A stretch of 64,000 nt of DNA from Eurosta solidaginis (taxonomy: Eukaryota > Arthropoda > Insecta > Diptera > Tephritidae), in the NCBI RefSeq assembly GCF_040869045.1, contig NC_090319.1, positions 173,636,645 through 173,700,644 on the forward strand. The letters are read 5' to 3'. Within the stretch, counting starts at the first letter, position 1. Every line of letters begins with the position of its first letter. Below, piece after piece: positions 3,971 through 54,346 of this stretch. A model generated the notes under the pieces. That model worked only from the letters and a program-made list of their open reading frames with translations, was not told the DNA's origin and did no database searches. Position numbers and translations under genes: made by a program.

Positions 3971-4133
3971 GAAACCCCGGAGAATACGCAGCTACTCTCA
4001 GATTACCTCTGCCCACTCTTACCACATCACCGTCAATAATATGTCGTATTTCGCAACATAATGCCAGCTAAAACCCCCTGCATTAGTATTTGTCTCCACT
4101 AAAATACTTTCACAACTGTAATTACAGATCGCT

Positions 4134-4729: not shown

Positions 4730-4740
4730 GGCGGGGACGA

Positions 4741-5254: not shown

Positions 5255-5479
5255 CTCTAAAACCAAAACTCAAAACCACTATCTGGTAAAATCCATCTGA
5301 AAAAGCAACGCAATCCAAAGGTATTTAAACCTCCACCATTGACAAGTTCTCAGGAGAAATTATGCAACCACCATAATCAACCATCACCACTACATCATCG
5401 CCATCACCGCAGCAGCCGTGTCCGCCAGCTACATCCCACAGCAGAAAAAAAGGAAGGAAAATGTTGTACTGCCACCCCG
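5255..5479. other. No gene seen; CAT/CAC-rich low-complexity stretch
   Basis: It holds a low-complexity run of cat/cac/atc triplets around 5360-5430. No reliable coding signal on either strand. Confidence 0.5.
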
Positions 5480-9925: not shown

Positions 9926-10674
9926 TCTAAACGGTTATGGCCGTCCAACAAGGCTCGCCAGTCGCTCTCTCGCTCCGCCAACCGGCGCCAATTGGTCACA
10001 CCAAGGGAGTTTAAATCGTTTTCCACCTGATCCTTCCAACGGAGTGGGGTCGCCCTCTACCTCTGCTACCATAGGCGGGTTCCGATAGAAACACTTTCTT
10101 GGCCGGAGCATCATCTTTCATTCGCATAACATGGCCCAGCCAGCGCAGCCGCTGCGTTTTAATTCGCTGGACTATGTTGATGTCTGCGTATAGCTCGTAC
10201 AGCTCATCATTAAATCTTCTTCGGTACTCGCCATCGCCAACGCGTAGAGGTCCATAAATCTTTCGAAGAACTGTTCTCTCGAACACTCCCAAACCCGCTT
10301 CATCTGCTGTTGTCATGGTCCATGCTTCTGCCCGATATAGCAGGACGGGTAAGATAAGTGACTTGTAGAGTATGATTTTCGTTCGCCGAGAGAGGACTTT
10401 ACTTTTCAATTGCCTACCTAGTCCAAAGTAGCATTTATTGGCAAGATTGATTCTTCGCTGGATTTCAGTGCTGATGTTGTTGCTAGTGTTGATGCTGGTT
10501 CCCAAATAAACGAAGTCTTTTACTATTTCGAAATTATGGCTGCCAACAGTAGCGTGGTTGCCAAGGCGCATATGCGCTGACTCTTTGCTCGATGACATCA
10601 AGTACTTCGTTTTGTCCTCATTCACCATCGAACCCATCTTTACCGCTTCTTTTTCCAGTTTGGAGTAAGCAGAG
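9926..10674 (-). mobile_element. RTE-like LINE, part 3 of 3 (RT C-terminus and 3' end)
   Basis: Minus-strand coding from 10674 down to 10011 begins in KLEKEAVKMGSMVNEDKTKY, the region after the RT catalytic box. It continues through INLANKCYFGLGRQ and the C-terminal RLRWLGHVMRM that is typical of RTE-like polyproteins. The longer ORF that appears to start at 10772 takes its first 33 codons from the inserted LTR and is not a real protein. The rest of the LINE is at 38973-39465 and 42460-44118. Bases 10670-10674 (CAGAG) are the left target-site duplication of the BEL insertion. Confidence 0.75.
10670..10674. repeat. Target-site duplication CAGAG, left
   Basis: CAGAG stands immediately before the first LTR and again immediately after the third LTR (38973-38977). 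Removing everything between them restores a continuous LINE reading frame. Confidence 0.85.
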
Positions 10675-11176
10675 TGTTCGGCCTGGGTGCGCCTGAAACC
10701 GGCAGTGGGTAGGCGCACACGGGTCGATCTCGGAATGGTTGGGTCTCTCGAAATAAATAAAGAAGAACGCAAAAGAGGATTTCCTCGTTATAATATAATA
10801 TTTAATTTAGAGTGAAGGAAAATACAATGTGGTTACAATATTACCTTGGTGTTTTAAGTGACGATGGTGATCCTTGCGATGTGTGCTGGTTGGCGGTCAA
10901 TCGAGAAAAAGGGCCGGTTATCCCGTTGAGGACAACCGCTAAGCCGCGAAAAAGTCCTCTGGTATTAAGGAGGGGAAAAAAGCCACACACACACCAACCC
11001 CCACATATACGTGCATGGGTGCTGACAACCCGCACACACACGCGCATGCGTATGAAACGCATGCATGTGCATGCATGCACACAAATGCGGCGTGAGTGTG
11101 GGTGGCTGGAAATATTATTAAAACGTTAGGGAGGGGCGCCGTCAATCAGATAAAAGTTAGGCATTGGGCCTAAACA
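10675..11176 (-). repeat. LTR 1 (3' LTR in element sense)
   Basis: In sense direction it begins TGTTTAGGCC and ends CCGAACA. Diagnostic bases on the plus strand are C at 10692, C at 10700, C at 10844 and A at 11095. It contains a GT/CA-rich stretch with nested palindromic GCATGC motifs near 11041-11080. Confidence 0.9.
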
Positions 11177-11189
11177 TGCCGCCCCCCTT
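11177..11189 (-). other. Polypurine tract, internal copy 1
   Basis: AAGGGGGGCGGCA in sense direction, directly before the TG of LTR 1. This is the plus-strand primer position for reverse transcription. Confidence 0.7.
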
Positions 11190-11700
11190 GCGGTACGCAA
11201 CAAATGCACAAATACAAATTCATTGGAAATTCTATGCTTGTGAATTTTGTATGAAGAAAATTCAATAAAAAATAACTTATTGTAATGATACAAGCTTTTA
11301 AAACGCACACCTCCATTGTGAATTCATACAAGTGGCGAATTTTCGATAAAACGTTCACAATAGTGAACGGCGAGTGAGTATTAATATGTAGTCTGATTTT
11401 CTGTATACAAATTTAAAGGAAAAGCTGATTTGAAACAAATGTGCAATTCATGGCACTTCAATTCAAAAACGGCGAACACAAGAAAAAGAAACCTTTCTTC
11501 CGTTCTCTGACCCTTCGCGACAGCCGTTCTCCCTGTCAGCTATAATTTGACACGTAGGTATGGCAATGGAGGGATAGAAAGATTTTTCACTTGTACGAAA
11601 TCACAATGCACACCTCTTGCGACTGTGTACAGCAGAAATTCAATAAAAATAAAAAAGTGTAAAAATTCATGGATTTCGGTCGTTACCGAACATTTTCATG

Positions 11701-13134
11701 TTAGGCCTTGGTTGTGCCCGAGAGTACCCAACCGAAGATGGTACTCTGAGCCAGCAAAGGGCCAAACGTGGTGGGCAGAATCCCTGGTAGCATTGTTTCG
11801 GCATATACGTCTGTCTCTAGTACGAGGCGGATCGGGGCGGATGAATAAAACTGTGGAATCGCCAGACGGAGATGTGCGTACGGGGATGCGATGGCGCTGT
11901 CGACGCTGGTCGTGGGGGCCATTCGCCGAAAATTGGACACGACCGCCGCATGGGTTGCAATCCGTTTATTTTGGCCGTGTCTTCCTCGTATACGTAGTAG
12001 GCATCCTGCTTGCCCGCCAATGGTGCTGGTAGGGAGTTGGAGCTCCCGGGCTAGCTCATCTGCGATCACGGTGGTGGGGGAGCATCCGTCAATCAAGGCA
12101 CGGACGAGGTGTAGCCGCCCCCCAGCTTCTATCTTCACGACCGCGGTGGGTGTGATCGCTACCGTTGGTATCATGGTGGCGGTGGCTGCTGAATGCTGGG
12201 CTACAAGCCCTGACCGGAAGGCGGGCACGGTGGTGAGCTGCAGCGTGTTGCCTCCGTGGCTGCGATCCTGTGGCTGATGTCGTTGGTGCAGGCGAAGAGG
12301 CCTTGTCTCCGCTCTGCGGTCGCGCGGATGTCGTCTCCGTTGGGGGTTCCTGGTTTGCCGGCGAAGAGACCGGGTCTCCGCTCGGCCGTTATATGTATGG
12401 CGCTGTGCTGTCGCTGTCCCTTGTTGGAGCCGCTTCCTCTCGTGCTGCAGAAGTGGTCGAAATGATTTGGCTGTAGGTGGTATGGTCGGGCGAAGAGACC
12501 GCGTCTCCGCTCCGGTTCGGCTGGCATCTCGGTTTCGGTGTGGACGAAGAGGTCCAGTCTCCGTTCCAGCGTCCGACGCATATAACGAGATTGAGTCGTC
12601 TATCCGCTCTCGGGGTGAATCTATGTCCTCTTCCACTTGGACGCTCCATGGCTTGGAGCGGGCTTCTTCTAATAGCTGCTCCTCTTCGTCGATCGAGGCG
12701 ATGTGCAGCATCGTGTAGTGCTTCTCGCCGCACCGTTTGCATCGCCCTTGGCTTGGGCGCGCGTTCGAGCGGTGATCAGGCGCCAGACAATTTCCGCAGT
12801 AGCTTTCGCGAATGGTTACGTAGAGGCGCTCTTCTGGCCTTTTCGCCCGAAAGGTTGGGCACAAGCGGATAGGGTGTCGCTCAAGACACACTCGGCATTC
12901 CGACGGATAACGCGCTGCGTTCGTCGCAACATTACGTTTCAAAGCGGCAAAACGACCCATTTTCCTGAAAGAAGTGCAATATGTTTGACTGGGTCGAGTC
13001 ATTCTCGAGATGCAGGGGCGAGTGGTCTCTAGTTGTATTATTGGGGATTTGGGAAATTTTATTAGCGCGCGCATAAGGGGAAACATCTGTCGCTGCATAA
13101 AAAAATATTCATATGTGGCGTGCATTATGTGCAT
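11701..13134 (-). CDS. Second Gag-protease-like ORF, intact, 3' of integrase (copy 1)
   Basis: 477 codons with no interruption, ending 524 bp before the 3' LTR. Residues 80-144 hold three zinc knuckles: C80-C83-H87-C92, a second starting C113-C116-H121, and C132-C135-H139-H144. An arginine-rich linker (190-290) repeats ET[RG][SP]LR four times, at residues 192, 210, 253 and 276. A retropepsin-like region follows, LVRALIDGCSPTTVIADELA. It keeps the aspartate (D349), but the usual S/T-G is G-C. The end, LAQSTIFGWVLSG, is the standard BEL/Pao segment after protease. The Gag capsid part and all of RT are absent. Its place after integrase is where other BEL elements may carry env. It could be an accessory nucleic-acid-binding protein or a captured piece of a related element. 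The true start may be M at residue 59 or nearby. Confidence 0.75.
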   Translation of the reverse strand: MHIMHATYEYFFMQRQMFPLMRALIKFPKSPIIQLETTRPCISRMTRPSQTYCTSFRKMGRFAALKRNVATNAARYPSECRVCLERHPIRLCPTFRAKRPEERLYVTIRESYCGNCLAPDHRSNARPSQGRCKRCGEKHYTMLHIASIDEEEQLLEEARSKPWSVQVEEDIDSPRERIDDSISLYASDAGTETGPLRPHRNRDASRTGAETRSLRPTIPPTAKSFRPLLQHERKRLQQGTATAQRHTYNGRAETRSLRRQTRNPQRRRHPRDRRAETRPLRLHQRHQPQDRSHGGNTLQLTTVPAFRSGLVAQHSAATATMIPTVAITPTAVVKIEAGGRLHLVRALIDGCSPTTVIADELARELQLPTSTIGGQAGCLLRIRGRHGQNKRIATHAAVVSNFRRMAPTTSVDSAIASPYAHLRLAIPQFYSSAPIRLVLETDVYAETMLPGILPTTFGPLLAQSTIFGWVLSGTTKA

Positions 13135-14544: not shown

Positions 14545-15600
14545 GTCACAGTGAGCATTATTTTGAGGCAAGACCATCAATTTCGATAATATCGCCAGGA
14601 AAGGGAGCACGCATATCATTTGCACGGCTCATTGTAATTACATCTTCAAAGGAATATTCTGACGCAATATTTTACGCATCTGATTTTTCCTCTTCTGACG
14701 GCGTATAAGCAGGTAAATACTCAATTTCGCAACGATTATAAAATTGTGCCATTGTTACCCAAATAAGCTTGAATATGCCTGGACCTTGCCAAGTCCATGT
14801 GAATATGTCATACCTACTTGTTGGGATACTTTAGCAATACCGGATGCACTGGTACGCCCGGATAGAAGCGCCAGACTTAAAATTAATCAATGCCTTACGA
14901 TTTGTGCAGGTACCCTCATACAAAATTACCACCTGTGGCCATTCTTCCTCCGAACGTGCACGCTGTACAATCTGACGTATCGTATTTGCACATAAATCGG
15001 TTGAGCGAAGTTGATGATTTTGCCCAATAGAGGTATATCAGCGCTATCACGCTTTGCTACAATTGATGGCGGCCCAGCTGTTACAACAATAATCGAGTCG
15101 ACGTAGGAAGAGTGCGGTGCTACCACCAGAATTGGAGCTTGTTTAGGTGAGGCACGTTGCCCAACCATTTTGACATGATAAAAGACCCTGAAGCGTATAA
15201 CATGCGCAGAGAAGCGGGTGTTACTCGTTTAAAATGTCTACGCCAACCACTAATTGTTTTGGACATCATATCATCAACTGTAAGACCATATAGACCAATG
15301 CAGGCAACCCTCCACGCAGATAAAAGTGATAAAAAAACAGCCAACAACGCGAATGGGAAGCAAAAGCACGGTAAGCATATAAATCTTTGCCAAATCAATT
15401 CTGTTGTCGATCTGCAAATTATGGACAAATGGATTAATGTAATTATATCCTGTTGATGACCAAGTATCATCTTCGGAATCCGTCTTTTCAAGAGAATTAT
15501 TTCGATTCGTGGCATTAATTTCGGTTGTTTCTTGACTTGCAATGTCTGCATCACTGTGTGAAGCGTTTTTACGTTGATTATTAAATATTGATGTTATCAT
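14545..15600 (-). pseudogene. LPCAT-like acyltransferase fragment captured in the element (copy 1)
   Basis: LPCAT enzymes acylate lysophosphatidylcholine in ER or lipid-droplet membranes. The minus strand starts at ATG 15600 with a polar N-terminus, then NPFVHNLQIDN and a hydrophobic segment TVLLLPIRVVGC. After frame changes comes VDDMMSKTISGWRRHFKRV, then the HX4D acyltransferase box in APHSSYVDS (15120-15095), KRDSADIPLLGKI, and EEEWPQVVI with EGTCTNR (near 14910). It ends near YSFEDV (about 14610). At least three frameshifts and a stop disrupt it. The family order is kept with no visible intron, which suggests an mRNA-derived copy. It follows Sin1 sequence directly and in the same sense as the retroelement. 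Family assignment is firm, function is lost. Confidence 0.8.
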
Positions 15601-15639
15601 TTTGGTTATTTGGCTTGGTGGGTTGAACGGTGGGGAAGA

Positions 15640-16550
15640 CTTACGCCATATGCGAGGCGTTGCCTTTACATTGCGCTTTTCGATTATTTCACAATACGCG
15701 ATGACATCAAGTGTATAGCCTTTTGTTTACTTCAAAATTTGGCGTTCTTATGTTGGTCACTTGGGATTTCAGGTGATCGAATCGAAATTGACCAAGTGCT
15801 ACTTCCGTTTTAAAGAAAGGTTTTTCGATTATGTTTAGACGATATGTACGATACATAGGTGCTTCCAACATAGCATTAGGAGTCATTAGACGTTCTTCAT
15901 AATCATCATTGTGACTTATAGTAAGACAGTTAGAGTCGCCTTCATCAACCCCTTCGCCATTTTTTTGATAAATTTTTTGTATAGAGCGTACAGCTGCCGC
16001 TGCCACTCTCGCTTTGTCATCTTCAGATTTCATAGATTTTGTTGCTAAATTTTTGGCATAATCAACGCGTATTACTTGAGCCACTGGCCCACGTTCTGCC
16101 AATTTTAGATGAGAAAAGCCAAACTTAGAACAAGGGGGACAGTCTTCCATACCATCTCTCGTCGTGTGTAAAGCATAATGCCTAATGGATTTTAACGGAA
16201 TCTCGGGGTACTGTGTTGTTGCTTTGTAACCTACAAGGCCAATTACCTCAATTGTCTTTGCGCTGGCTAGTACGCAAATTCTTATTGGATAGTTACTACC
16301 TCTTTCCGGCAGCATACTTAGAAAAAACATGTACGCTTTTCGTTTGTATTTCTGTCATATAAGTGCCATCAAATCGTGCATATTCCATAAATTTATTTTT
16401 GCGCTTGGTTGGGACTATTCGCTAATTGTAGAGCGAGTTTACTTTTTATTGTTGATGCGGTACCGCCACCACCTCCAGCATCATCAGTTACAAAAGAGGT
16501 GTGACCTTTTTCCGTCAGTGAAAAGGCAAACGACCAAGAGGATTCCGTGA
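15640..16550 (-). pseudogene. Sin1-like (TORC2 subunit) fragment captured in the element (copy 1)
   Basis: Sin1/MAPKAP1 recruits substrates to the TORC2 kinase. The minus strand reads EYARFDGT (near 16385), then in the ORF 16330-15707 ASAKTIEVIGLVGYKATTQY, YALHTTRDG and CSKFGFSHLKLAERG. These line up with the CRIM domain of Sin1 (human MASARVQDLIGLICWQYT and KFGFSTLAL). Later MYRTYRLNIIEKPFFKTEVA matches the segment leading into the PH-domain side. The normal continuation is interrupted by a 27-bp micro-inversion (15765-15791), after which similarity resumes. A frameshift also lies near 16330. The piece is internal to the protein and has no intron that I can see. It is joined to LPCAT sequence about 40 bp downstream. 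Confidence 0.7.
15758..15798. repeat. Micro-inversion bounded by CACTTGG / CCAAGTG (copy 1)
   Basis: CACTTGG (15758-15764) and CCAAGTG (15792-15798) flank 27 bp. The surrounding Sin1 frame is on the minus strand, but the bounded segment reads LGISGDRIEIDQV on the plus strand. That is the conserved Sin1 piece missing from the minus frame. The same arrangement is at 29656-29696. Confidence 0.75.
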
Positions 16551-16756
16551 AAAACAAATTACAAGAGGAGGAAGGGTAGTATGATCAGGTCCCAAGTTGA
16601 GCGATCAAGGGACCAAATGCTAGCTGGTTGAGAGCACAAATGTCACGAACATATTAGCGAGCTTACTCTTGAAACTCTTACTCGCCAAAATTGCATTATA
16701 GGTTGGTAATGGTTGACGCCAATGCTTAAAACGCATTGACAGTTATGATGATTTGA

Positions 16757-16960
16757 GGCATTACCGACTTTGAAGCAGATTCTCACACTGCCGAACATAT
16801 TCTTAATAAATTAATTTGCATTTATAAAATGAAACCCAGTGAGGTTCGGCGTGAATTCCTACAATCAAGGGAACGAAAACTGGAAAAAAAGGCACACCTC
16901 TTTGGCCAACGATTATTATTATTTTTTTTTTCTCAGCTTAGTTCTTTTGTGGAGGTATAA
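16757..16960 (+). other. Unassigned protein-like stretch on the opposite strand
   Basis: Between stops, this plus-strand frame reads [20 protein letters not shown] and then [20 protein letters not shown]. The composition looks like real helical protein rather than noise. It is vaguely reminiscent of a vesicle-tethering-complex subunit such as Vps51, but I cannot assign it. It lies between the RRBP1-like and Sin1-like pieces and runs against their direction. Confidence 0.25.
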
Positions 16961-17073
16961 GAGTTAGTTCGTAAAATATTCCGTGTGAAAGCTAATTTTG
17001 TATGCCCAATTTAAATCAAATTATTGTGCTCATCAGATAAATTTTGTTTTTTTTTTTATTAATGTCATTATAG

Positions 17074-17944
17074 TTACGAAAACTTGGGTTGAAGTTTTTC
17101 AAGATATAATTTTACAGTAGCACTAATTTGGGCGCTTTCGGTATTGATTTCGGTGCGCAATTCACGTAATTTTGCTTGAACCCCCATAGGAGCTTCTTGC
17201 TCTTCGACAAGGGCCTTTGCTTTCTCCACCAGCTGACGTTTCAACTTCTGACCTATGTCATCGGACCATTCAGAGTGTGTTGCTGGTGTATCTTGCTGTG
17301 TATTCAATAAATAATCGATGAGGATTTGTATTTCGGACCGATTAAGTTCAGCACGACGGAAGAGATTCATTTGCAATGAAACGTCAATTGTACCGGATTC
17401 GGAAAGTTTATCTAACGCCAAAATTAATTCTTTCGTAGCGGCAGTTTCTTTGTTTTGGTTTTTATTTTGTTGCATGGTTTTACTATTACCGCCGCTGATA
17501 TTTTTGGCGTTGTTTGCATGTCTTCGGTGAACCATGACGTATCTTTTCCTCTTGCTGTTTCAATTCTTTAGCAACGTGCACATAGGCGACTGGTTCGACT
17601 ACCGGTTGTTGTTGCTGTTGCGGTGGTGGTGGTTGTTCAACAACTGCTCCAACTATTGGCTTTTTTTCCTTTTTAAAAAAATTTTTTTTTTTCCTTGAGA
17701 GTGATACATCCTCTAGTGTAGGAATGGCGGGTTCGTTTAACGCCGTTTCGTTAAATCGTGCCATTAAATTACGACGACTTATGCCAAAAGTTGATGGCAC
17801 AATCCTCCAATCATATCGAATATGATGAAAAAAAAAACAAAAGTGGTTAAGAATATGAATCATAAATGATACCTTGATGTTTCGATTAAAAAATACTTGT
17901 AAATTTGAACCTTTGCAATAATCTGTGGTATGGTGGTTGAACAT
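17074..17944 (-). pseudogene. RRBP1/p180-like fragment captured in the element (copy 1)
   Basis: p180/kinectin-type proteins are ER-anchored coiled-coil proteins. The first frame (17944-17486) has RRNLMARFNE, a lysine-rich run, then PPPPQQQQQP. A shifted frame (17535-17074) has NRSEIQILIDYLLNTQQD, then KLKRQLVEKAKALVEEQEA and VQAKLRELRTEINTE. This resembles human RRBP1 around LKRQLEEKEKLLATEQEDAA and SKLREVNKEM. The N-terminal membrane anchor is not visible. A frameshift near 17530 splits it. It begins about 60 bp after the integrase reading frame of copy 2 ends, on the same strand. The assignment is by eye and less certain than LPCAT. Confidence 0.55.
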
Positions 17945-18158
17945 CCTTTTTTTTTTGATGAGTCTGGCAATGTTCTTATCGTATTGAGTACATTAAAACT
18001 TCTAAAATCTGAATACTTTAGTAATGGTGATATCTGGGGCAGATGGGTTTTCCATCTGCGTTAGGCTTGCGATGGGCCTCGTTGCACGCCAACGAGTGCA
18101 GTTGTTTTCTGTGGCAGAGCGGTTCGCCCTTCTGCGGTAGGTTTTTCTGTTGTCCTCG

Positions 18159-19643
18159 TTATGGTATAACGAGTGAATTGTGAGTTTGATTTTTTTTTTT
18201 TTTTTTGGTGTCCTCGTTATGGGAGAACGAGTGAGTGGGAAGATTTCTGGTGTCCTCGCTCGGGGTGAGCGAGTGAATTTGTGGGATATTTTTTGAAAAT
18301 GAAAAAAAAAAACAAAAAAAAATAGAATTTTGTGGCAGATGGGGATCTGCATTAGGGTGGTTTGGAATCCGTAGTGGGAGCCTCCCACGGTGAGTCTCGG
18401 CGTAGGGGTAGCGGAGTGGATAGATTATGCTCTTACGGGGACGAAATGAGTTCTCGCAGTCCATCTCCTCCGTTGGAAGAAGGATCAGTTTGACCAAAGG
18501 TCGTCTGACTTGACCCTTCTCGGTTATGAGGTCGACTACACGAACTTGGTTGTCTTCGCCGGGGTGTATGTTGACGACTCGACCTAACCTCCATTCGTTG
18601 GGAGATAAGTTGTCCTCCTTGATGACAACTAGATCATCCACTTTCAGATTTTGTTTTGTGTGTTTCCACTTCACTCGTTTTTGAAGCTCGGAAAGATATT
18701 CGGTTTTCCACCGCTGGCAGAAGGTTTGATGGAGGGCCTTGAGCTTCTGCCATCTGTTTATTATGGAGGCCGGGCTTTCGTTCACATCCGGTTCTGGCGG
18801 CGCCAGAAGATGGCTGCTCGTTAGGAAATGTCCTGGGGTTAGTGGTTCCAGGTCCGTTGGGTCATTCGACCCCGGACTGAGAGGGCGCGAGTTGAGGCAC
18901 GCCTCAATCCGGCACAAAAGTGTTTGGAACTCCTCCATAGTATATTTGTGGGGAGAAGCGATCTTTTTGAAGTGGCGCTTGAAGCTCTTCACTCCAGCTT
19001 CCCACAGGCCGCCCATATGTGGAGCGGCGGCGGGAATAAAATGCCAGCTCAATGCTTGATGGCTATACTTTAAGACTGTTTTGTCTCGGCTTTCGGCCAG
19101 AAAGGCTTTAAATTCGGATCGTAAAGATCTTGATGCTCCGACAAAGTTTGTACCATTGTCGGAGTAGATATTTTTCGGACATCCTCTTCTCGCGATAAAA
19201 CGCGAGAAGGCAGCAAGAAAGCATGGGGTGCTGAGGTCACTAGTGGCCTCTAAGTGGATGGCCTTAGTGGAGAAACAGACAAAAAGGCATACGTAGCCTT
19301 TTGACAGTCGACATCCCCTACCGCGGTAGCTTTTGATGTCGAAAGGCCCTGCAAAGTCTACCCCGGTATTGGTGAACGCGCGGGTAAAAGTAGTCCGCTC
19401 GCAGGGAAGGGTCCCCATAAGTTGGGACTGTGCCTGCTTTCGGTGAATAATGCAGGTTTTGCAATTGTGGATGATGGCTCTGATCATGGTCTTGACAGTC
19501 GGTATCCAGTATTGGGTTCGGATGAGACGAAGCATGAGCTGGTTCTCGCCATGAAGGGAGTCATGATGAGCCATCATAACTGTAAGGCGAGACAGCCTGC
19601 AATTGTAAGGCAAGATGATCGGATGAGGCTCGTTGTATGACAT
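18159..19643 (-). CDS. BEL/Pao integrase (copy 1)
   Basis: Inserts element cDNA into the genome. There is an N-terminal HHCC finger (H27, H31, C61, C64). The core carries D96 in GVDFAGPFD, D162 in YSDNGTNFVG and E215 in GGLWEAGVKSF, so the DDE triad is complete. The C-terminal domain has NEWRLGRVVNIHPG and VKLILLP, followed by a low-complexity tail. It would normally be fused to RT. Here a frameshift near 19667, in a run of five Gs, separates it from the upstream part. The tail differs from copy 2 because the A-run near 18302 has 11 rather than 10 bases. Confidence 0.85.
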   Translation of the reverse strand: MSYNEPHPIILPYNCRLSRLTVMMAHHDSLHGENQLMLRLIRTQYWIPTVKTMIRAIIHNCKTCIIHRKQAQSQLMGTLPCERTTFTRAFTNTGVDFAGPFDIKSYRGRGCRLSKGYVCLFVCFSTKAIHLEATSDLSTPCFLAAFSRFIARRGCPKNIYSDNGTNFVGASRSLRSEFKAFLAESRDKTVLKYSHQALSWHFIPAAAPHMGGLWEAGVKSFKRHFKKIASPHKYTMEEFQTLLCRIEACLNSRPLSPGSNDPTDLEPLTPGHFLTSSHLLAPPEPDVNESPASIINRWQKLKALHQTFCQRWKTEYLSELQKRVKWKHTKQNLKVDDLVVIKEDNLSPNEWRLGRVVNIHPGEDNQVRVVDLITEKGQVRRPLVKLILLPTEEMDCENSFRPRKSIIYPLRYPYAETHRGRLPLRIPNHPNADPHLPQNSIFFCFFFSFSKNIPQIHSLTPSEDTRNLPTHSFSHNEDTKKKKKNQTHNSLVIP

Positions 19644-19657
19644 GTCTTTTGACGACC

Positions 19658-20104
19658 CTAGACGCCCCCTGTTCTAATAATATCATCTTTGTCGATATAT
19701 GGGTTTAGGGACAGTATTTCACTCTTGCGATCGATAGGCTCCCTATTTTTTAATTTTAAATATTCTGTCCCGTAAAATTGTTTCTGGCAGACTCGTATTA
19801 ATGCTTGAGTCGTTGCCTTAATCTCATCGGCTGAGATTATACACAACCTTTCGTGGAACGTTGCTTTAGTTTTTGGGTGAGTTCTTTTATAAAACCTCCT
19901 AACATAGGATAGAACCTTCAAAGCCCTGGGTAAATGCGAAAAACGGTCGAGAATATCTACCTGATTTACCCTTGTCGTGGCATATGTTTGTGCCCTCTTC
20001 TCCTCAATTGACGTTTTGTATTCGGTCTCTTGTGCTGGCCAGTGGGAATTGTTTTCTTGCAGCCAAGAAGGCCCCTGCCACCACAACGAATTGTTGACCA
20101 AATC
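19658..20104 (-). CDS. BEL/Pao pol segment between RNase H and integrase (copy 1)
   Basis: About 148 codons with LVNNSLWWQGPSWL, the standard sequence that follows RNase H in BEL/Pao, then a helical linker and LNPYIDKDDIIRTGG before integrase. It is in frame with the upstream RT ORF, from which an ochre stop (20107-20105) separates it. A frameshift follows at its 3' end. Both copies share these breaks, so they predate the duplication. Confidence 0.75.
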   Translation of the reverse strand, partial: DLVNNSLWWQGPSWLQENNSHWPAQETEYKTSIEEKRAQTYATTRVNQVDILDRFSHLPRALKVLSYVRRFYKRTHPKTKATFHERLCIISADEIKATTQALIRVCQKQFYGTEYLKLKNREPIDRKSEILSLNPYIDKDDIIRTGGV

Positions 20105-23100
20105 TTATGCAATTAGGCCTCTGCTTCCTAGATCCGCTGGATTAGATTCCGAGTCCACGTGAAGCCAGTCCTTGCTACCGACCATATCGATGATCTTAGT
20201 GATTCGGTGTGCGACGAAGGTTGACCAGGAACAGGGCGGCTTTCTTATCCACGCTAGTACGATGGTTGAATCCGTCCAGAGGTAAACTTTTGCTGATCCC
20301 AAATGAATGTTTCGGAATATTGATTCCATGATTTCTGCAAGCAGCACGGCGCCGCAGAGTTCTAAACGTGGTAGCGAGATGGTTTTCACTGGAGCTACTC
20401 TGGTTTTTGCTAAAAGTAAGTGTATGAAAACCTGATCGTCACTTTTCACGCGCATGTATACCGCTGCCGCATATGCTTTCTCGGAAGCGTCACAGAAGCC
20501 GTGGATTTCTATGTCGTCTTCCGGTGAAAAATTTACCCACCGGGGTATCCTAATGTTATCTATTTCGCTATAGTGTTGGGTGAAATTTTCCCACCGTTCT
20601 AAGGTAGTTGGAGAGACAGGTTCGTCCCACCCGGTGCCCTCTAACCAGATATGCTGCATTAGTATTTTTGCCACTATGACCATTGGTGCAAGCCAGCCTA
20701 AAGGGTCGAAAAGTTTGGCTATAGCGGATAGGATTGCGCGTTTGGTGGTGTTCTCACCATTCCCTAAAGCTCCTGCTGTAAAGTAAAACATGTCTGAGTG
20801 CGCGTTCCATCGTATTCCGAGTGCCTTCACTGAGCTAGCCTCTTCAAACGCTAGGAAGTCCTCGCTGAGCAAATCCGTTTTGGGGATGTCCTGAAGGATT
20901 TCCTCACAATTTGATGTCCACTTACGCAATGGAAGGCCAGCTGAGTGTAATGCTTCGCAAATCTCGTTTCTTGCTCTGATGGTTGACGCTATTGTATGTC
21001 CTCCAGATAAAACGTCGTCGACATACATACTTTCTCGTAATATACCCGATGCTATTGGGTGCGTATTTTCTACATCATCAGCCAATTGTAGAAGTGACCC
21101 TATCGCGAGGTAGGGGGCGCAGTTTACACCAAAGGTGACAGTCTTTAGTTCGTAAAGACTGGTGGGTTCGTTGGGGGATGTTCGATGGACAATCCGTTGA
21201 AATTTGGTGTGATTTTCGTTCACCCAAATTTGCCTATACATCTTTTCGATGTCGCTATTAAAGACGAAGCGATACTGTCGCCAACGTAAAATTAAAATAG
21301 GCAAGTCTGCTTGGAGTACTGGACCTGGGTGGAGTATGTCGTTTAGACTAATGCCATTTGCTGTCGGACTTGACGCATTGAAGACGACGCGCACCTTGGT
21401 AGTGGTACTCTCTGCCTTTACAACGGCGTGGTGGGGCAGGAAATAATTATCCGAATCGTCGGATGGTACATTATTCTTGATTTTTCTCATATGTCCAAGT
21501 GTTTCGTATTCTGACAACACCCGGACATACTCTTTCCCTAACTCTTGGTTTTTTAGTAATCGCCCCTCATTTCTGAAGAATTGTGAACATGCGCGCTTTA
21601 GGGACGGTCCTAATTTAATATTCTCAGGGTAATCCTGCCTGAATGGTAGCGAAACTATATACTTCCCATTTTCATCACGTTTTGTCGTTTCCTTAAATAG
21701 TTGTTCGCAATACCTTTCTTCTTCATTAAGCATTTTGTTTTTGGGAACATTTTCTATCTCCCAGAAAGCTTTTAATTGGTTGTCCAATGCAACCTCGTTA
21801 TAAAATGACATGATGCTCTTCGTTGGACTCGGTGCTTCGATGCGACCGGTTAGTATCCAACCGAACACTGTCTCTTGGGCCAAAAGTGTATTTAGTACAT
21901 TCTTTTTCAGACCGCTCAGTATAATTTGGGGATATATGTCTCCTCCAAGTATGAGGTCTACGTCTTCGTTGATGTAGAACCTTTTGTCTGCCAACACCAA
22001 GTCTGGGAATGCCTGCATAGTCATGGCGTTGATATGACAGGATGGAAGATTCCCAGTGAGTTTGGCTAGGACTAGAACGGGTGTAGTCAGGCTGAAGCAG
22101 GCATCCACTGGTGAACGTAATCCAATTTTGGATGCCTCTTTCACCTGAGCTGACACCGCATTTGTGATGCCTGAAACTTGGGCATGCATTTTTCTCGCTG
22201 GCAAATTGATTCTGCGTTTCAGTCTTTCAGTTATAAAGGAACATTCAGACCCTGAATCAATTAATGCCCGTGCGGAGAAGTCGGTACCATTATGGCGAAT
22301 GTGTAAGCGAGCAGTTCCTAATAGCACGCCTGTGCTGGAATTGGCATGACAGGATCTTACACTCTGGTTCGCAGATTGTCGCGCCTGAGCCGAAGTTGTT
22401 GGGATGTTATCCGCATCTTTGAAAGGATTGCGTACAGCCGTGTGCTGAGATGTATCCGCATGCAGGAGCGTGTGGTGACGAGAGTGGCATTTGGAACAGT
22501 TGTAGGAACTGGTGCACTTCGTCACGGTGTGTCCTGAGGATAAGCAATTCAGGCAGCCACTTGTGGATTTTATAAATTTAATCCTTTCTACTGGGGTTAA
22601 CTCGCAGAAGCGTGAACAGTTGCGTAATCTGTGTTCAGGGGATTTACACATTTTACAAATTGATTTTATTGTTTGTTTGGATACTTTCGTTTGGAAAGCA
22701 CCAAGTCTTTTCGTAGGGGTTTCTGACGAATGTCGCGACGCGTTTGGTTTTTGCACTTTCGAAGTGGCATGCCCTGTAAAACTAGACACTGTTTCAAGTG
22801 TCTGAAACCGATTAGACAGGAATTTATCCATATCCTCCCATTTGGATATGTCCATTTTATGATCTATACTTTGCTCCCATAGAGCCAACGTGCTCTCTGG
22901 TAGCTTGGTTGAGCAGAGATAAGTCAGGATTGCATCCCAATTGGAAGTGTCAATTTTGTGGCATTTGAGGGACGAAATACAATTATTTATATCATTTTGC
23001 AGCTTTTTTATTGAACTGCCACACTCACTTTCTACCTTTTTTAAGTTAAATAAAATTTGTAGTTGTGTGTTAACTAAGATACGTTTGTTTTCGTATCTTT

Positions 23101-23269
23101 CACACAAGTTTTTCCAGGCCATCTCGAAACCTTCATTTGTGAGAGGGCATTTTTTAACGATATCTTTTGCTTCGCCCTGCGTTTTGTTGTTGAGATGGAA
23201 TAACTTTTCCACCCCTTTCAAACTAGAATTGTTTATATATATTGCCGCGAAAAGGTCGCGAAAAGTTGG
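20105..23269 (-). CDS. BEL/Pao Gag C-terminus, protease, RT and RNase H (copy 1)
   Basis: 1,038 codons from the first methionine at 23221; the same frame is open from 23269. Numbering from that M, capsid-like helices occupy 1-150. Zinc knuckles are at about 190-255 (CKMCKSPEHRLRNC, CLNCLSSGHTVTKC, CSKCHSRHHTLLH). Retropepsin ALIDSGSECSFI is near 320 with the normal D-S-G. The RT catalytic box YVDDVLSGG is near 732. RNase H begins with HGFCDASEKAYAAAV near 905 and contains LWTDSTIVL. The reading frame ends in an ochre stop within the normal RNase H/integrase linker. RT is intact here but frameshifted in copy 2. Confidence 0.88.
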   Translation of the reverse strand, partial: PTFRDLFAAIYINNSSLKGVEKLFHLNNKTQGEAKDIVKKCPLTNEGFEMAWKNLCERYENKRILVNTQLQILFNLKKVESECGSSIKKLQNDINNCISSLKCHKIDTSNWDAILTYLCSTKLPESTLALWEQSIDHKMDISKWEDMDKFLSNRFQTLETVSSFTGHATSKVQKPNASRHSSETPTKRLGAFQTKVSKQTIKSICKMCKSPEHRLRNCSRFCELTPVERIKFIKSTSGCLNCLSSGHTVTKCTSSYNCSKCHSRHHTLLHADTSQHTAVRNPFKDADNIPTTSAQARQSANQSVRSCHANSSTGVLLGTARLHIRHNGTDFSARALIDSGSECSFITERLKRRINLPARKMHAQVSGITNAVSAQVKEASKIGLRSPVDACFSLTTPVLVLAKLTGNLPSCHINAMTMQAFPDLVLADKRFYINEDVDLILGGDIYPQIILSGLKKNVLNTLLAQETVFGWILTGRIEAPSPTKSIMSFYNEVALDNQLKAFWEIENVPKNKMLNEEERYCEQLFKETTKRDENGKYIVSLPFRQDYPENIKLGPSLKRACSQFFRNEGRLLKNQELGKEYVRVLSEYETLGHMRKIKNNVPSDDSDNYFLPHHAVVKAESTTTKVRVVFNASSPTANGISLNDILHPGPVLQADLPILILRWRQYRFVFNSDIEKMYRQIWVNENHTKFQRIVHRTSPNEPTSLYELKTVTFGVNCAPYLAIGSLLQLADDVENTHPIASGILRESMYVDDVLSGGHTIASTIRARNEICEALHSAGLPLRKWTSNCEEILQDIPKTDLLSEDFLAFEEASSVKALGIRWNAHSDMFYFTAGALGNGENTTKRAILSAIAKLFDPLGWLAPMVIVAKILMQHIWLEGTGWDEPVSPTTLERWENFTQHYSEIDNIRIPRWVNFSPEDDIEIHGFCDASEKAYAAAVYMRVKSDDQVFIHLLLAKTRVAPVKTISLPRLELCGAVLLAEIMESIFRNIHLGSAKVYLWTDSTIVLAWIRKPPCSWSTFVAHRITKIIDMVGSKDWLHVDSESNPADLGSRGLIA

Positions 23270-23659
23270 CTAAGACAGATAATCCCCTTTAAAAACTTCC
23301 GTGTCGCAAGCAGGGAGGCGAATTTTATGCCCATGAGGTTCTTGCTCAGGGTTGACGTTCTTTTCATCCTTCTTGTATTTTTCTGCCTCAGCAGATATAG
23401 ACGCTGAACATCGCACGTAGATTGCGTATGCTGCCTTTTGCTTCTTTCTGATCGCCATAACGTCATCCGCTGACACCTCATCAGATCCCAATAGCGAATC
23501 AAACGCAGACTTTACCTTCTTCCACAAGAGCCGCAACTCTTCCTGCTGTATTGCAAGGGTGTGTTTGCTATGGTCGCTCTCCGGAATAAGGCTGTAATCT
23601 TTATCAAACTCTGCGATTGATTCTGATAAACGGATGTAGGTTTCCATGGTCTTGGTCAC
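23270..23659 (-). CDS. BEL/Pao Gag N-terminus, ended by in-frame amber (copy 1)
   Basis: 129 codons from M at 23659, helical and charged, ending KIRLPACDTEVFKGDYLS. The motif LP...EVF.GD is usual just before the main capsid region of BEL/Pao Gag. A TAG at 23272-23270 follows, and the downstream frame is the same one and open, so a single nonsense codon separates the two parts. The same amber is in copy 2. Readthrough is possible in principle but nothing in the sequence demonstrates it. Confidence 0.75.
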   Translation of the reverse strand: MTKTMETYIRLSESIAEFDKDYSLIPESDHSKHTLAIQQEELRLLWKKVKSAFDSLLGSDEVSADDVMAIRKKQKAAYAIYVRCSASISAEAEKYKKDEKNVNPEQEPHGHKIRLPACDTEVFKGDYLS

Positions 23660-24555
23660 GTTTATTAAAGAGAAAATTGCCGATTAGAAATAATGAGAGT
23701 CTCCTGAATTAAGATACCTGGCCTAGCAGTAAATTAAAAACTTTGAATTTCGACGTTTTATATTTATTACTTTTATTTCAGACTTTGTCAGCGTAGCGAC
23801 AACGGAAAAGGGTTAATTTTTTGGACTTCTTGTCACAGCAATGAAAAATAGCAAACGATATTATGTACAAACTTTTTGTCTCAGCGGCAACAACAAAAAG
23901 GGGACCACTCGCCACCTCCACAAATAATAGGTGTATTTTTGAGAAAGTGAAAAAATGCGTGCAATATACGAAACTAAGCGCAAAAAAAAAGTGTAAAAAG
24001 TGTTTAAAAAGTGAAGTGAGCACCGGATTAATTAATTAAAGTGAACTTAATTTCGTGTTTGTGAAGTACAAAAAAACAACAACAAAACCTATTTAGTATG
24101 GTGCGGAAAGTGAGGTTAGGTTGCCCTCTTCCTTGTGTTGTGTCTGGAAAACCTTACCACTGGTGGGGGGATAGACCAGATAATCACAAGGACTGAAAAT
24201 AAACGCTAACAAACCGAGTGATTTAACCTTTGAAATTAGAAAAATAAAGTGGTGCTCACTAAATCACTTCACTGTTTTCACTTTTATTTTCAATTTTTCG
24301 CGCACTGCACGGGGTTCTTTTTTCTTTATTTTGCAAAAAAAAAACAACACTCAAAAAAAGTGGCAAGAAATATAAACTTACTTCTCTTTGTGCTGTGGCT
24401 CACGTATTTGTCTAATATAAAGCTCCAACTTTTTCCTTGTCAACAATTGGTGGCAAATAAATTTTTATTAGGCAAAATCCTTCGGCAAATTGTCTAGTAG
24501 GCAAAATTGTGCTGCGTTGTGGACTGTAATTTGTAGGTTCTTTTAGTTCCTTTTT
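23660..24555 (-). other. Leader between primer-binding site and gag (copy 1)
   Basis: An A/T-rich untranslated leader of about 0.9 kb in element sense. It contains short out-of-frame ORFs only. Confidence 0.5.
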
Positions 24556-24572: not shown

Positions 24573-25074
24573 TGTTCGGCCTGGGTGCGTCTGAAACTGG
24601 CAGTGGGTAGGCGCACACGGGTCGATCTCGGAATGGTTGGGTCTCTCGAAATAAATAAAGAAGAACGCAAAAGAGGATTTCCTCGTTATAATATAATATT
24701 TAATTTAGAGTGAAGGAAAATACAATGTGGTTACAATATTACCTTGGTGTTTTAAGTGACGATGGTGATCCTTGCGATGTGTGCTGGTTGGCGGTCAATC
24801 GAGAAAAAGGGCCGGTTATCCCGTTGAGGACAACCGCTAAGCCGCGAAAAAGTCCTCTGGTATTAAGGAGGGGAAAAAAGCCACACACACACCAACCCCC
24901 ACATATACGTGCATGGGTGCTGACAACCCGCACACACACGCGCATGCGTATGAAACGCATGCATGTGCATGCATGCACACAAATGCGGCGTGAGTGTGGG
25001 TGGCTGGAAATATTATTAAAACGTTAGGGAGGGGCGCCGTCAATCAGATAAAAGTTAGGCATTGGGCCTAAACA
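24573..25074 (-). repeat. LTR 2 (middle LTR), mosaic
   Basis: It shares T at 24590 and T at 24598 with LTR 3, but C at 24742 and A at 24993 with LTR 1. The switch therefore lies between offsets 26 and 170 of the LTR. No target-site duplication flanks it. Confidence 0.9.
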
Positions 25075-28442: not shown

Positions 28443-29498
28443 GTCACAGTGAGCATTATTTTGAGGCAAGACCATCAATTTCGATAATATCGCCAGGAAA
28501 GGGAGCACGCATATCATTTGCACGGCTCATTGTAATTACATCTTCAAAGGAATATTCTGACGCAATATTTTACGCATCTGATTTTTCCTCTTCTGACGGC
28601 GTATAAGCAGGTAAATACTCAATTTCGCAACGATTATAAAATTGTGCCATTGTTACCCAAATAAGCTTGAATATGCCTGGACCTTGCCAAGTCCATGTGA
28701 ATATGTCATACCTACTTGTTGGGATACTTTAGCAATACCGGATGCACTGGTACGCCCGGATAGAAGCGCCAGACTTAAAATTAATCAATGCCTTACGATT
28801 TGTGCAGGTACCCTCATACAAAATTACCACCTGTGGCCATTCTTCCTCCGAACGTGCACGCTGTACAATCTGACGTATCGTATTTGCACATAAATCGGTT
28901 GAGCGAAGTTGATGATTTTGCCCAATAGAGGTATATCAGCGCTATCACGCTTTGCTACAATTGATGGCGGCCCAGCTGTTACAACAATAATCGAGTCGAC
29001 GTAGGAAGAGTGCGGTGCTACCACCAGAATTGGAGCTTGTTTAGGTGAGGCACGTTGCCCAACCATTTTGACATGATAAAAGACCCTGAAGCGTATAACA
29101 TGCGCAGAGAAGCGGGTGTTACTCGTTTAAAATGTCTACGCCAACCACTAATTGTTTTGGACATCATATCATCAACTGTAAGACCATATAGACCAATGCA
29201 GGCAACCCTCCACGCAGATAAAAGTGATAAAAAAACAGCCAACAACGCGAATGGGAAGCAAAAGCACGGTAAGCATATAAATCTTTGCCAAATCAATTCT
29301 GTTGTCGATCTGCAAATTATGGACAAATGGATTAATGTAATTATATCCTGTTGATGACCAAGTATCATCTTCGGAATCCGTCTTTTCAAGAGAATTATTT
29401 CGATTCGTGGCATTAATTTCGGTTGTTTCTTGACTTGCAATGTCTGCATCACTGTGTGAAGCGTTTTTACGTTGATTATTAAATATTGATGTTATCAT
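28443..29498 (-). pseudogene. LPCAT-like fragment (copy 2)
   Basis: Identical arrangement to 14545-15600: ATG at 29498, NPFVHNLQIDN, the HX4D box in APHSSYVDS and EGTCTNR, with the same frameshifts. The disruptions therefore predate the duplication. Confidence 0.8.
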
Positions 29499-29537
29499 TT
29501 TGGTTATTTGGCTTGGTGGGTTGAACGGTGGGGAAGA

Positions 29538-30448
29538 CTTACGCCATATGCGAGGCGTTGCCTTTACATTGCGCTTTTCGATTATTTCACAATACGCGAT
29601 GACATCAAGTGTATAGCCTTTTGTTTACTTCAAAATTTGGCGTTCTTATGTTGGTCACTTGGGATTTCAGGTGATCGAATCGAAATTGACCAAGTGCTAC
29701 TTCCGTTTTAAAGAAAGGTTTTTCGATTATGTTTAGACGATATGTACGATACATAGGTGCTTCCAACATAGCATTAGGAGTCATTAGACGTTCTTCATAA
29801 TCATCATTGTGACTTATAGTAAGACAGTTAGAGTCGCCTTCATCAACCCCTTCGCCATTTTTTTGATAAATTTTTTGTATAGAGCGTACAGCTGCCGCTG
29901 CCACTCTCGCTTTGTCATCTTCAGATTTCATAGATTTTGTTGCTAAATTTTTGGCATAATCAACGCGTATTACTTGAGCCACTGGCCCACGTTCTGCCAA
30001 TTTTAGATGAGAAAAGCCAAACTTAGAACAAGGGGGACAGTCTTCCATACCATCTCTCGTCGTGTGTAAAGCATAATGCCTAATGGATTTTAACGGAATC
30101 TCGGGGTACTGTGTTGTTGCTTTGTAACCTACAAGGCCAATTACCTCAATTGTCTTTGCGCTGGCTAGTACGCAAATTCTTATTGGATAGTTACTACCTC
30201 TTTCCGGCAGCATACTTAGAAAAAACATGTACGCTTTTCGTTTGTATTTCTGTCATATAAGTGCCATCAAATCGTGCATATTCCATAAATTTATTTTTGC
30301 GCTTGGTTGGGACTATTCGCTAATTGTAGAGCGAGTTTACTTTTTATTGTTGATGCGGTACCGCCACCACCTCCAGCATCATCAGTTACAAAAGAGGTGT
30401 GACCTTTTTCCGTCAGTGAAAAGGCAAACGACCAAGAGGATTCCGTGA
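29538..30448 (-). pseudogene. Sin1-like fragment (copy 2)
   Basis: Same as 15640-16550, including the CRIM-like ASAKTIEVIGLVGYK and KFGFSHLKL, and the micro-inversion bounded by CACTTGG/CCAAGTG at 29656-29696. Confidence 0.7.
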
Positions 30449-30971
30449 AAAACAAATTACAAGAGGAGGAAGGGTAGTATGATCAGGTCCCAAGTTGAGC
30501 GATCAAGGGACCAAATGCTAGCTGGTTGAGAGCACAAATGTCACGAACATATTAGCGAGCTTACTCTTGAAACTCTTACTCGCCAAAATTGCATTATAGG
30601 TTGGTAATGGTTGACGCCAATGCTTAAAACGCATTGACAGTTATGATGATTTGAGGCATTACCGACTTTGAAGCAGATTCTCACACTGCCGAACATATTC
30701 TTAATAAATTAATTTGCATTTATAAAATGAAACCCAGTGAGGTTCGGCGTGAATTCCTACAATCAAGGGAACGAAAACTGGAAAAAAAGGCACACCTCTT
30801 TGGCCAACGATTATTATTATTTTTTTTTTCTCAGCTTAGTTCTTTTGTGGAGGTATAAGAGTTAGTTCGTAAAATATTCCGTGTGAAAGCTAATTTTGTA
30901 TGCCCAATTTAAATCAAATTATTGTGCTCATCAGATAAATTTTGTTTTTTTTTTTATTAATGTCATTATAG

Positions 30972-31842
30972 TTACGAAAACTTGGGTTGAAGTTTTTCAA
31001 GATATAATTTTACAGTAGCACTAATTTGGGCGCTTTCGGTATTGATTTCGGTGCGCAATTCACGTAATTTTGCTTGAACCCCCATAGGAGCTTCTTGCTC
31101 TTCGACAAGGGCCTTTGCTTTCTCCACCAGCTGACGTTTCAACTTCTGACCTATGTCATCGGACCATTCAGAGTGTGTTGCTGGTGTATCTTGCTGTGTA
31201 TTCAATAAATAATCGATGAGGATTTGTATTTCGGACCGATTAAGTTCAGCACGACGGAAGAGATTCATTTGCAATGAAACGTCAATTGTACCGGATTCGG
31301 AAAGTTTATCTAACGCCAAAATTAATTCTTTCGTAGCGGCAGTTTCTTTGTTTTGGTTTTTATTTTGTTGCATGGTTTTACTATTACCGCCGCTGATATT
31401 TTTGGCGTTGTTTGCATGTCTTCGGTGAACCATGACGTATCTTTTCCTCTTGCTGTTTCAATTCTTTAGCAACGTGCACATAGGCGACTGGTTCGACTAC
31501 CGGTTGTTGTTGCTGTTGCGGTGGTGGTGGTTGTTCAACAACTGCTCCAACTATTGGCTTTTTTTCCTTTTTAAAAAAATTTTTTTTTTTCCTTGAGAGT
31601 GATACATCCTCTAGTGTAGGAATGGCGGGTTCGTTTAACGCCGTTTCGTTAAATCGTGCCATTAAATTACGACGACTTATGCCAAAAGTTGATGGCACAA
31701 TCCTCCAATCATATCGAATATGATGAAAAAAAAAACAAAAGTGGTTAAGAATATGAATCATAAATGATACCTTGATGTTTCGATTAAAAAATACTTGTAA
31801 ATTTGAACCTTTGCAATAATCTGTGGTATGGTGGTTGAACAT
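30972..31842 (-). pseudogene. RRBP1/p180-like fragment (copy 2)
   Basis: Same two shifted frames as at 17074-17944 (31842-31384 and 31433-30972). The coiled-coil segment KLKRQLVEKAKALVEEQEA is unchanged. Confidence 0.55.
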
Positions 31843-38470: not shown

Positions 38471-38972
38471 TGTTCGGCCTGGGTGCGTCTGAAACTGGCA
38501 GTGGGTAGGCGCACACGGGTCGATCTCGGAATGGTTGGGTCTCTCGAAATAAATAAAGAAGAACGCAAAAGAGGATTTCCTCGTTATAATATAATATTTA
38601 ATTTAGAGTGAAGGAAAATACAATGTGGTTACAATATTATCTTGGTGTTTTAAGTGACGATGGTGATCCTTGCGATGTGTGCTGGTTGGCGGTCAATCGA
38701 GAAAAAGGGCCGGTTATCCCGTTGAGGACAACCGCTAAGCCGCGAAAAAGTCCTCTGGTATTAAGGAGGGGAAAAAAGCCACACACACACCAACCCCCAC
38801 ATATACGTGCATGGGTGCTGACAACCCGCACACACACGCGCATGCGTATGAAACGCATGCATGTGCATGCATGCACACAAATGCGGCGTGGGTGTGGGTG
38901 GCTGGAAATATTATTAAAACGTTAGGGAGGGGCGCCGTCAATCAGATAAAAGTTAGGCATTGGGCCTAAACA
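38471..38972 (-). repeat. LTR 3 (5' LTR in element sense)
   Basis: Diagnostic plus-strand bases are T at 38488, T at 38496, T at 38640 and G at 38891. It ends directly at the second CAGAG. Confidence 0.9.
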
Positions 38973-39465
38973 CAGAGCTAACAGCGCGGGTGTTTAGGCC
39001 GATGATATCAATGTCATCAGCATATGCCAGTAATTGCACGCTTTTATAGTATATTGTTCCAGTGCGGTTAAGTTCTGCAGCTAGTATAATTTTCTCCAGC
39101 ATCAAATTAAAGAAATCGCACGATAGGGGGTCACCCTGTCTGAAACCTCGTTTAGTTTCGAACGGCTCGGAGAGGTCCTTCCCAATTCAGACTGAGCTGA
39201 TGGTGTTGCTCAACGTCATTTTGCACAGCCGTATAAGTTTTGCGGGGAAACCAAATTCAGACATAGCGGCATATAGGCAGCTCCTTTTCGTGCTGTCGAA
39301 GGCGGCTTTAAAGTCGAAGATTTGGCGCATTGTGAAAATCTGGTCGATGGTAGATTTACCAGGTCTGAAGCCGCACTGATAAGGTCCAATCAGCCGGTTT
39401 ACGGTGGGCTTCAATCTTTCGCACAATACACTTGACCTTATATGCGATATTGAGAAGGCTGATTC
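38973..39465 (-). mobile_element. RTE-like LINE, part 2 of 3 (RT core)
   Basis: Minus-strand coding begins at 39460 and includes CERLKPTVNRLIGPYQCGFR, PGKSTIDQIF, DFKAAFDS, GFRQGDPLS and the RT box LAYADDIDIIG (around 39030-39000). It runs to the BEL target site, where the frame continues at 10674. An in-frame stop lies near 39187. Bases 38973-38977 are the right CAGAG and 39461-39465 one copy of GATTC. Confidence 0.78.
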
Positions 39466-47150: not shown

Positions 47151-47164
47151 AAAAAAGGTGCTGT

Positions 47165-54307: not shown

Positions 54308-54346
54308 TATCGATATTTCGACTTCAATTAGAAGTCATCTTCAGGA
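54308..54346 (-). ncRNA. Candidate hammerhead ribozyme core, left Penelope arm
   Basis: In minus sense: CTGAAGA, a perfect 6-bp stem II (GACTTC / GAAGTC) with loop TAATT, then GAAA and TATCGAT. This matches the CUGANGA...GAAA core of the minimal hammerheads described in Penelope-like elements. Stem I was not worked out. Confidence 0.45.

Follow-up and report, generated by a model that had tools for sequence, protein, structure and literature searches.

Spliced host mRNA pieces in one slot of a BEL/Pao retrotransposon family of Eurosta solidaginis: probable repeated capture by template switching

Retroposition mediated by long terminal repeats (LTRs) was reportedly described in metazoans by Tan et al. 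in 2016. In this process, the element RNA is exchanged as template for a cellular mRNA at microsimilarities, and usually a limited part of the mRNA is copied, as a review reports for Drosophila and mosquito (PMC5408686). Maize Bs1 is presented in a review as an LTR retroelement with segments of three host genes, and a title cited there names a hybrid open reading frame (ORF) (PMC13317346). In mosquitoes, the BEL-Pao elements called Anakin have gained a chuvirus glycoprotein within their LTRs (PMC7642597), and in the diamondback moth the W-linked PxyMasc retrocopies called Pxyfem join partial host cDNA to an LTR retrotransposon by inferred template switching (PMC9674220). In the literature covered, multi-gene LTR transduction rests on maize Bs1, and animals are represented by partial retrocopies. 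Here, we describe a stretch of 64,000 nt (the window) in the 1.9 Gb genome of Eurosta solidaginis (GCF_040869045.1, NC_090319.1:173,636,645-173,700,644, forward strand), in which a BEL/Pao LTR retrotransposon carries a mosaic of pieces of the host genes RRBP1, Sin1 and LPCAT. It is highly probable that the BEL/Pao family to which this element belongs repeatedly captures spliced host mRNAs at one slot by template switching.

Elements of the BEL/Pao type have a Pao-type pol (Peptidase_A17), a BEL gag domain and an integrase with DUF5641, together with paired TG..CA LTRs and a target duplication of 4-6 bp. This domain set is present in the window element, where Pfam detected Peptidase_A17 (E 1.4e-53) and DUF1759 (2.9e-17) in the frames of tandem copy 2, and DUF5641 (8.4e-32) and the integrase zinc-binding domain H2C2 (1.1e-8) in tandem copy 1. 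Together with the paired LTRs, these domains identify the minus-strand element as a BEL/Pao LTR retrotransposon, the class already given to it in a preliminary description of the locus. Host-derived sequence covers 14577-17664, between the integrase and a second ORF, and thus lies slightly inside the span of 14545..17944 that had been proposed for it. The cargo was correctly placed between integrase and 3' LTR, but the second ORF also lies before that LTR.

The three gene pieces were identified by searches against 5.8 billion proteins, with best-match E-values of 1e-60 for RRBP1, 6e-91 for Sin1 and 5e-85 for LPCAT. The best matches of Sin1 (stress-activated map kinase-interacting protein 1; 83%) and LPCAT (73%) are proteins of Eurosta solidaginis, and that of RRBP1 (ribosome-binding protein 1) is from Rhagoletis pomonella (79%). 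In genome searches, in which the best candidates were scored, DNA identity to the parents in the same genome was 93% for RRBP1, 88-94% for Sin1, 85-97% for the LPCAT coding part and 79-89% for the LPCAT 5' region. Among the raw ORFs, a set with the Sin1 and RRBP1 frames and without the LPCAT frame, Pfam named no host gene at E<=0.001; a separate scan at E<=1 matched an acyltransferase domain twice (9.9e-7 and 8.5e-4) and CRIM weakly (0.0017), with nothing for RRBP1. In view of these results, the identity of the cargo genes rests on the protein and genome comparisons, by which the preliminary naming of all three is upheld. The parents lie on three contigs (RRBP1 on C1, Sin1 on C3, LPCAT on C4), so that they are not adjacent, and those of Sin1 and LPCAT contain introns. 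The Eurosta Sin1 protein is encoded at 100% in two exons on C3. For RRBP1, the C1 locus gives the longest match, with amino acids (aa) 1-675 in a single open exon, and two further loci give equally good but shorter matches. A second copy of part of an LPCAT exon (aa 134-182), 78% similar, lies ~3 kb upstream of it (L010:9591-9740) and is possibly an alternative exon; the cargo DNA matches this copy at 96.6%.

The spliced state of the cargo bears directly on how it was acquired. The Sin1 piece lacks its single intron in the span (~56 bp), which has GT..AG borders in the parent and an exact exon join in the element. In the LPCAT piece, introns of ~45 kb, 55 bp, 91 bp and 4.4 kb with parental GT..AG borders are missing at exact joins, and a fifth (77 bp) falls within a deletion of the window copy and is exactly absent in copy E, one of the dispersed copies treated below. 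Truncated predicted proteins had already pointed to the Sin1 intron, and a Drosophila isoform to one LPCAT exon border; the genome agrees with both. In addition, the LPCAT 5' piece, whose source begins 1.7-2.3 kb ahead of the first LPCAT exon, has lost a GTAAG..TTTAG stretch, presumably an intron of the 5' untranslated region (5'UTR); the upstream region seems to be transcribed together with LPCAT. Because introns are precisely removed in Sin1 and LPCAT, capture at the RNA level is supported, in line with the earlier proposal, and the absence of introns noticed then holds against the parent genes.

Capture as DNA by a Helitron, a DNA transposon or double-strand-break repair is very improbable. 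Helitron-type capture, formerly regarded as the main alternative, fails to explain the loss of introns, and fragments that keep introns, its hallmark, were not found for Sin1 or LPCAT, with no search aimed at Helitron termini. The disappearance of the ~45 kb, 4.4 kb and 55-91 bp introns at exact exon joins contradicts any DNA-level origin of Sin1 and LPCAT, which would be possible for RRBP1 alone. Meanwhile, a listing of 20 inverted pairs across positions 10600-19700 of the window contains arms of at most 32 nt and no pair that closely brackets the cargo. A 38-bp microinversion and antisense pieces do resemble replication-based rearrangement, though the microinversion is absent in copy E and, because it is not inverted there, probably arose after capture.

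The arrangement of the pieces is that of a mosaic (Table 1). Reading in element sense gives RRBP1, then the LPCAT 5' region, Sin1 3' in antisense, Sin1 in sense, LPCAT 5' region in antisense, Sin1 aa 178 to ~470 and LPCAT aa 1 to ~364, with pieces of LPCAT and Sin1 alternating along the cargo. The frameshifts reported earlier are real, whereas the statement that all pieces are in sense was wrong, as one Sin1 and two LPCAT pieces are antisense. At three of the six junctions the neighbouring pieces overlap by 11, 9 and 3 bp, both in the window element (copy A) and in copy E (raw counts). We infer that template switching inside the particle was the capture step. During reverse transcription, the enzyme would switch at short common sequences from the RNA of the element to host mRNAs packaged with it, in some cases repeatedly and on either strand, and would rejoin the element RNA at a point upstream of the 3' LTR; the mosaic gathered in this way then moves as part of the element.

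A genome search found the cargo, whole or partial, at six loci besides the window (copies B-G). Paired LTRs are present at six of the seven cargo loci, and target duplications of 4-5 bp accompany them at five (A, B, C, E and G; none at F, with D outside the count). In B, C and E, except at the ends of the fetched stretches, the alignment of the cargo runs through every junction, and in G it runs through those on the RRBP1-LPCAT-Sin1 side; the mosaic is thus whole in B, C and E and partial in D, F and G, and its junctions recur beyond the window, as capture by a mobile element had been expected to leave them. The recurrence of the cargo with LTR pairs and target duplications indicates that the loaded element transposes. 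At 36 sites (17+11+8), every copy that has the site differs from the parent identically, a count to which changes in the parent would also contribute; this pattern is expected of one capture followed by spread. In an unrooted tree of the cargo the parent stands beside E with a support of 0.951, which fits an early branching of copy E before all others. Rows covering less than half of a piece were left out of the gene-piece alignments (F for Sin1, and the unmatched D for RRBP1 and F for LPCAT). Within copy E, direct repeats of 236 bp, 98.7% identical (C6:204439430-204444078), are probably a nested element, and two identical 830-bp tandem units that include an LTR lie at the end of copy G (C5:101754112-101755768, L023).

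It is improbable that the mosaic was a chimeric processed pseudogene that LINE or LTR machinery first produced in the genome and that decayed before the element took it in as DNA. Such a history agrees with the intronless and broken state of the cargo, and some RRBP1 fragments occur elsewhere without the rest of the mosaic (C28:297844, C6:144521331). However, no complete mosaic was found outside element loci among the best 40 of 180 candidates, and the RRBP1 and LPCAT pieces end within coding sequence, without the poly(A)-bearing mRNA 3' end that is a hallmark of LINE processed pseudogenes. In addition, the same two-step history would have to be assumed separately for each of the three or more spliced cargo types that share the slot.

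The window element was found by self-comparison to consist of two tandem units of 13.9 kb each with three LTRs, the units being 99.9% identical. BEL/Pao elements usually measure 4.2-10 kb (PMC3118150); the surplus of the window unit is made up of the cargo and the second-ORF region. The middle LTR equals LTR3 at the first two of four variable positions and LTR1 at the other two, the recombinant pattern expected of unequal LTR-LTR recombination, by which the window copy appears to have been doubled. When the empty site was rebuilt from the flanks and a single CAGAG, a frame was open across the joint, which we take to be that of a LINE-type reverse transcriptase. That the assembler made both the tandem copy and the mosaic has a negligible probability. 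The near identity of the tandem copies is what such an artefact would give, but the mosaic stands, whole or partial, at seven dispersed loci whose flanks, LTR divergence and target duplications differ where read, and neither the recombinant middle LTR nor the open frame at the empty site agrees with it. The earlier picture of a single element with three genes is thus retained for the cargo and revised for the element, which is doubled and belongs to a family with different slot genes.

The second ORF resembles the gag-protease of the element itself (26% identity, pairwise E 5e-16); its Pfam match to an aspartyl protease is weak (E 0.21), and a CCHC motif was spotted by eye. Similar frames, partly broken, were seen by eye at the same place in copies B, E and G. 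Searches of viral contigs returned no relative of either the second ORF or the integrase.

Seven other members of the family (L031-L037) were read. The region from 12900 to ~14450 is repetitive, with 1613 first-look candidates of which the best 40 were scored; 18 of these 40 3'-region matches were assigned a cargo, two being those of the window itself, and the other 22 were left out. All seven members have integrase DNA on one side and DNA of the second-ORF region on the other. Their similarity to the window ends at 14423-14492 and resumes at 18093-18245, with 3.5-6 kb of other sequence between, and five distinct slot contents occur among them. In L032, an open ORF of 968 aa in element sense (2808-5711) joins SMARCC/Moira in frame to TRIP12, with a SMARCC/Moira PDB match at residues 14-551, a SWIRM domain, and the TRIP12 HECT domain at 752-951; an antisense Na/H-exchanger-like piece, slightly under the Pfam cut-off, lies in the same slot. 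This cargo is found at ten near-full-length dispersed loci including L032, 99-100% identical. The parental exon series lie at C1:52.88 Mb and at C1:120.44-120.48 Mb, with a third stretch at C1:69.69 Mb, and six introns are absent from the cargo by coordinates. In L035, an open ORF of 1048 aa without a Pfam match (3811-6954) runs across two captured genes with parents on C3 and C2. On C2 the cargo matches ten exons spread along 164 kb, and on C3 it matches three stretches; by coordinates, it lacks eleven introns. Its first gene occurs without the second at nine further places among the scored matches (96-97%), which suggests that captures accumulated stepwise. The L034 and L035 slots are 99% alike. 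The L031 and L036 slots are 98-99% identical, and L036 matches Forkhead (best FOXK1/2); the slots of L033 and L037 hold an SNF2 domain and a kinase (best match Myt1), respectively. Some slot genes may be Mondo, adducin, XNP and dolichol kinase. In L037, a 366-aa open frame antisense to the element (5927-7024) has no Pfam or PDB match and may be dolichol kinase-like.

At the integrase-side border of the slot, the sense RNA contains three CTCG..CGAG hairpins, and the folding of this region (18142-18290) has a z of -5.2 against 200 shuffles. At least one match to the hairpin pattern occurs at this border in all seven other members (raw pattern match). We conjecture that the hairpin array promotes template switching. 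More speculatively, and with considerable doubt, a hairpin-flanked slot that adds mRNAs, swaps cargo between subfamilies and spreads intact, expressed fusion ORFs such as Moira-TRIP12 and the two-gene 1048-aa ORF might act as a standing exon-shuffling machine.

The cargo differs from its parents by 3-8%. In Sin1 and LPCAT together, 16 of 160 invariant residues are changed versus 26 of 208 variable ones, and the Eurosta proteins themselves depart at 6 of the 160 invariant residues; in RRBP1 the changes are 4/54 and 23/90, with the Rhagoletis and not the Eurosta protein as reference. The similar rate at invariant and variable residues points to a Sin1 and LPCAT cargo, at least, that decayed without constraint, as expected of dead cargo. 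By the time the window copy received its LTRs (0.8% apart), this cargo had probably long been dead, with gag-pol still near intact. Between the window and E or G, the cargo is 91-95% identical (A-E 91-94%) while the LTRs are barely alignable, and gag-pol ranges from 72 to 94% per 400-bp bin, with the lowest values (72-75%) in three consecutive bins at 20600-21799. The LTRs and second ORF of the window also diverge more than the cargo when compared with B and C. Dead cargo should be less conserved, yet it is more alike than much of gag-pol; an exchange of the cargo block, along with adjoining sequence, between backbones that had diverged is therefore probable. Such passage could proceed by recombination of co-packaged RNAs.

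Several observations weigh against capture by template switching, one capture with spread, or backbone exchange. The other three of the six junctions have overlaps of 0-2 bp in copy A and different ones in copy E (raw counts), and a simple read-through model does not predict the antisense pieces. The RRBP1 piece, lying inside one exon, is uninformative on introns, and splice sites were read for the window cargo, the Moira-TRIP12 and L035 cargoes being judged by exon coordinates. Tree placement alone leaves separate histories possible for the copies. In the A-E comparison gag-pol reaches 92-94% at 19000-19799, matching the identity of the cargo. Template switching as such is read from its DNA products.

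Table 1. Features of the window element (copy A; window coordinates) and dispersed copies of the RRBP1-LPCAT-Sin1 cargo
Feature	Position	Strand	Remarks
Left target-site duplication CAGAG	10670..10674	.	Flank comparison
3' LTR, 502 bp, TG..CA	10675..11176	-	LTR comparison
Second ORF, 477 aa, open	11701..13134	-	Between cargo and 3' LTR
LPCAT mRNA, short 5'UTR to ~aa 364	14577..15636	-	Intronless, frameshifted
Sin1 mRNA, aa 178 to ~470	15634..16492	-	Intronless, frameshifted
38-bp microinversion within Sin1 piece	15758..15795	+	Not inverted in copy E
LPCAT 5' region, antisense to element	16491..16551	+	
LPCAT 5' region, antisense to element	16584..16729	+	
Sin1 3' coding piece, sense	16721..16768	-	
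Sin1 C-terminal piece, antisense to element	16758..16886	+	Protein match aa 543-590 at 16766-16900
LPCAT 5' region, sense	16885..17082	-	GTAAG..TTTAG stretch gone (presumptive 5'UTR intron)
RRBP1 piece, ~aa 196-397	17083..17664	-	Within one exon
Three CTCG..CGAG hairpins, sense RNA	18142..18290	-	Integrase-side slot border
gag-pol, tandem copy 1	18162..23683	-	Two in-frame stops and one frameshift over ~5.5 kb
Middle LTR, common to both tandem copies	24573..25074	-	Left part LTR3-like, right part LTR1-like
Cargo of tandem copy 2	28475..31562	-	100% identical to copy 1 cargo
5' LTR	38471..38972	-	4/502 differences to 3' LTR
Right target-site duplication CAGAG	38973..38977	.	Flank comparison
Copy B	C1:220.67 Mb		LTR pair: 6 mismatches and 28 gap positions; CATAT
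Copy C	C5:88.99 Mb		LTR pair: 7/515 differences; GTGT
Copy D	C1:176.43 Mb		Rearranged, with no match to the RRBP1 piece
Copy E	C6:204.43 Mb		LTR pair: 11/447 differences; ACTG
Copy F	C2:109.06 Mb		Has lost LPCAT along with most of Sin1; LTR pair 11/511; no target duplication
Copy G	C5:101.74 Mb		Gap around Sin1-LPCAT joint; LTR pair 1.5% of 454; AATAC

Between the RRBP1 piece and the integrase end, 17706-17944 contains short stretches that recur at many places of the genome. Elsewhere in the window, a cluster of direct and inverted repeats with units of ~390-450 bp, mostly 94-96% identical, lies at 44203-47155, and inverted pairs of ~480 and 585 bp with 98% identity lie at 54206-56771.

An open-access literature search, with most subscription papers outside its range, found no LTR family of animals in which a single slot holds several multi-gene cargoes. 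Because captures that differ in age occur in one insect genome, with their parents intact and their junctions traceable, the mechanism and frequency of capture and the fate of fusions are directly measurable. Young cargoes with open fusion ORFs would make gene birth by retrotransduction testable, and a cargo common to several backbones would be a natural record of retroelement recombination.

Like Anakin, the window element is a BEL/Pao element with a foreign gene inside its LTRs, but the Anakin gene is viral and env-like, and the Eurosta cargo consists of host mRNA pieces. Pxyfem likewise joins partial host cDNA to LTR retrotransposon sequence; however, it is found among the degraded remains of elements and gives rise to piRNAs, whereas the Eurosta cargo sits within paired-LTR elements. 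In contrast to the retrocopies described for LTR-mediated retroposition, the Eurosta element keeps its gag-pol, re-transposes, diversifies and carries several genes. As in a transducing element of the type of maize Bs1, several host gene segments lie between LTRs and are mobilised by retrotransposition, and the cargo is spliced (Sin1, LPCAT). Bs1 is described as one plant element with one gene set; the Eurosta elements are a BEL/Pao family of an animal, in whose single slot several different cargoes occur and whose cargo has apparently passed between backbones.

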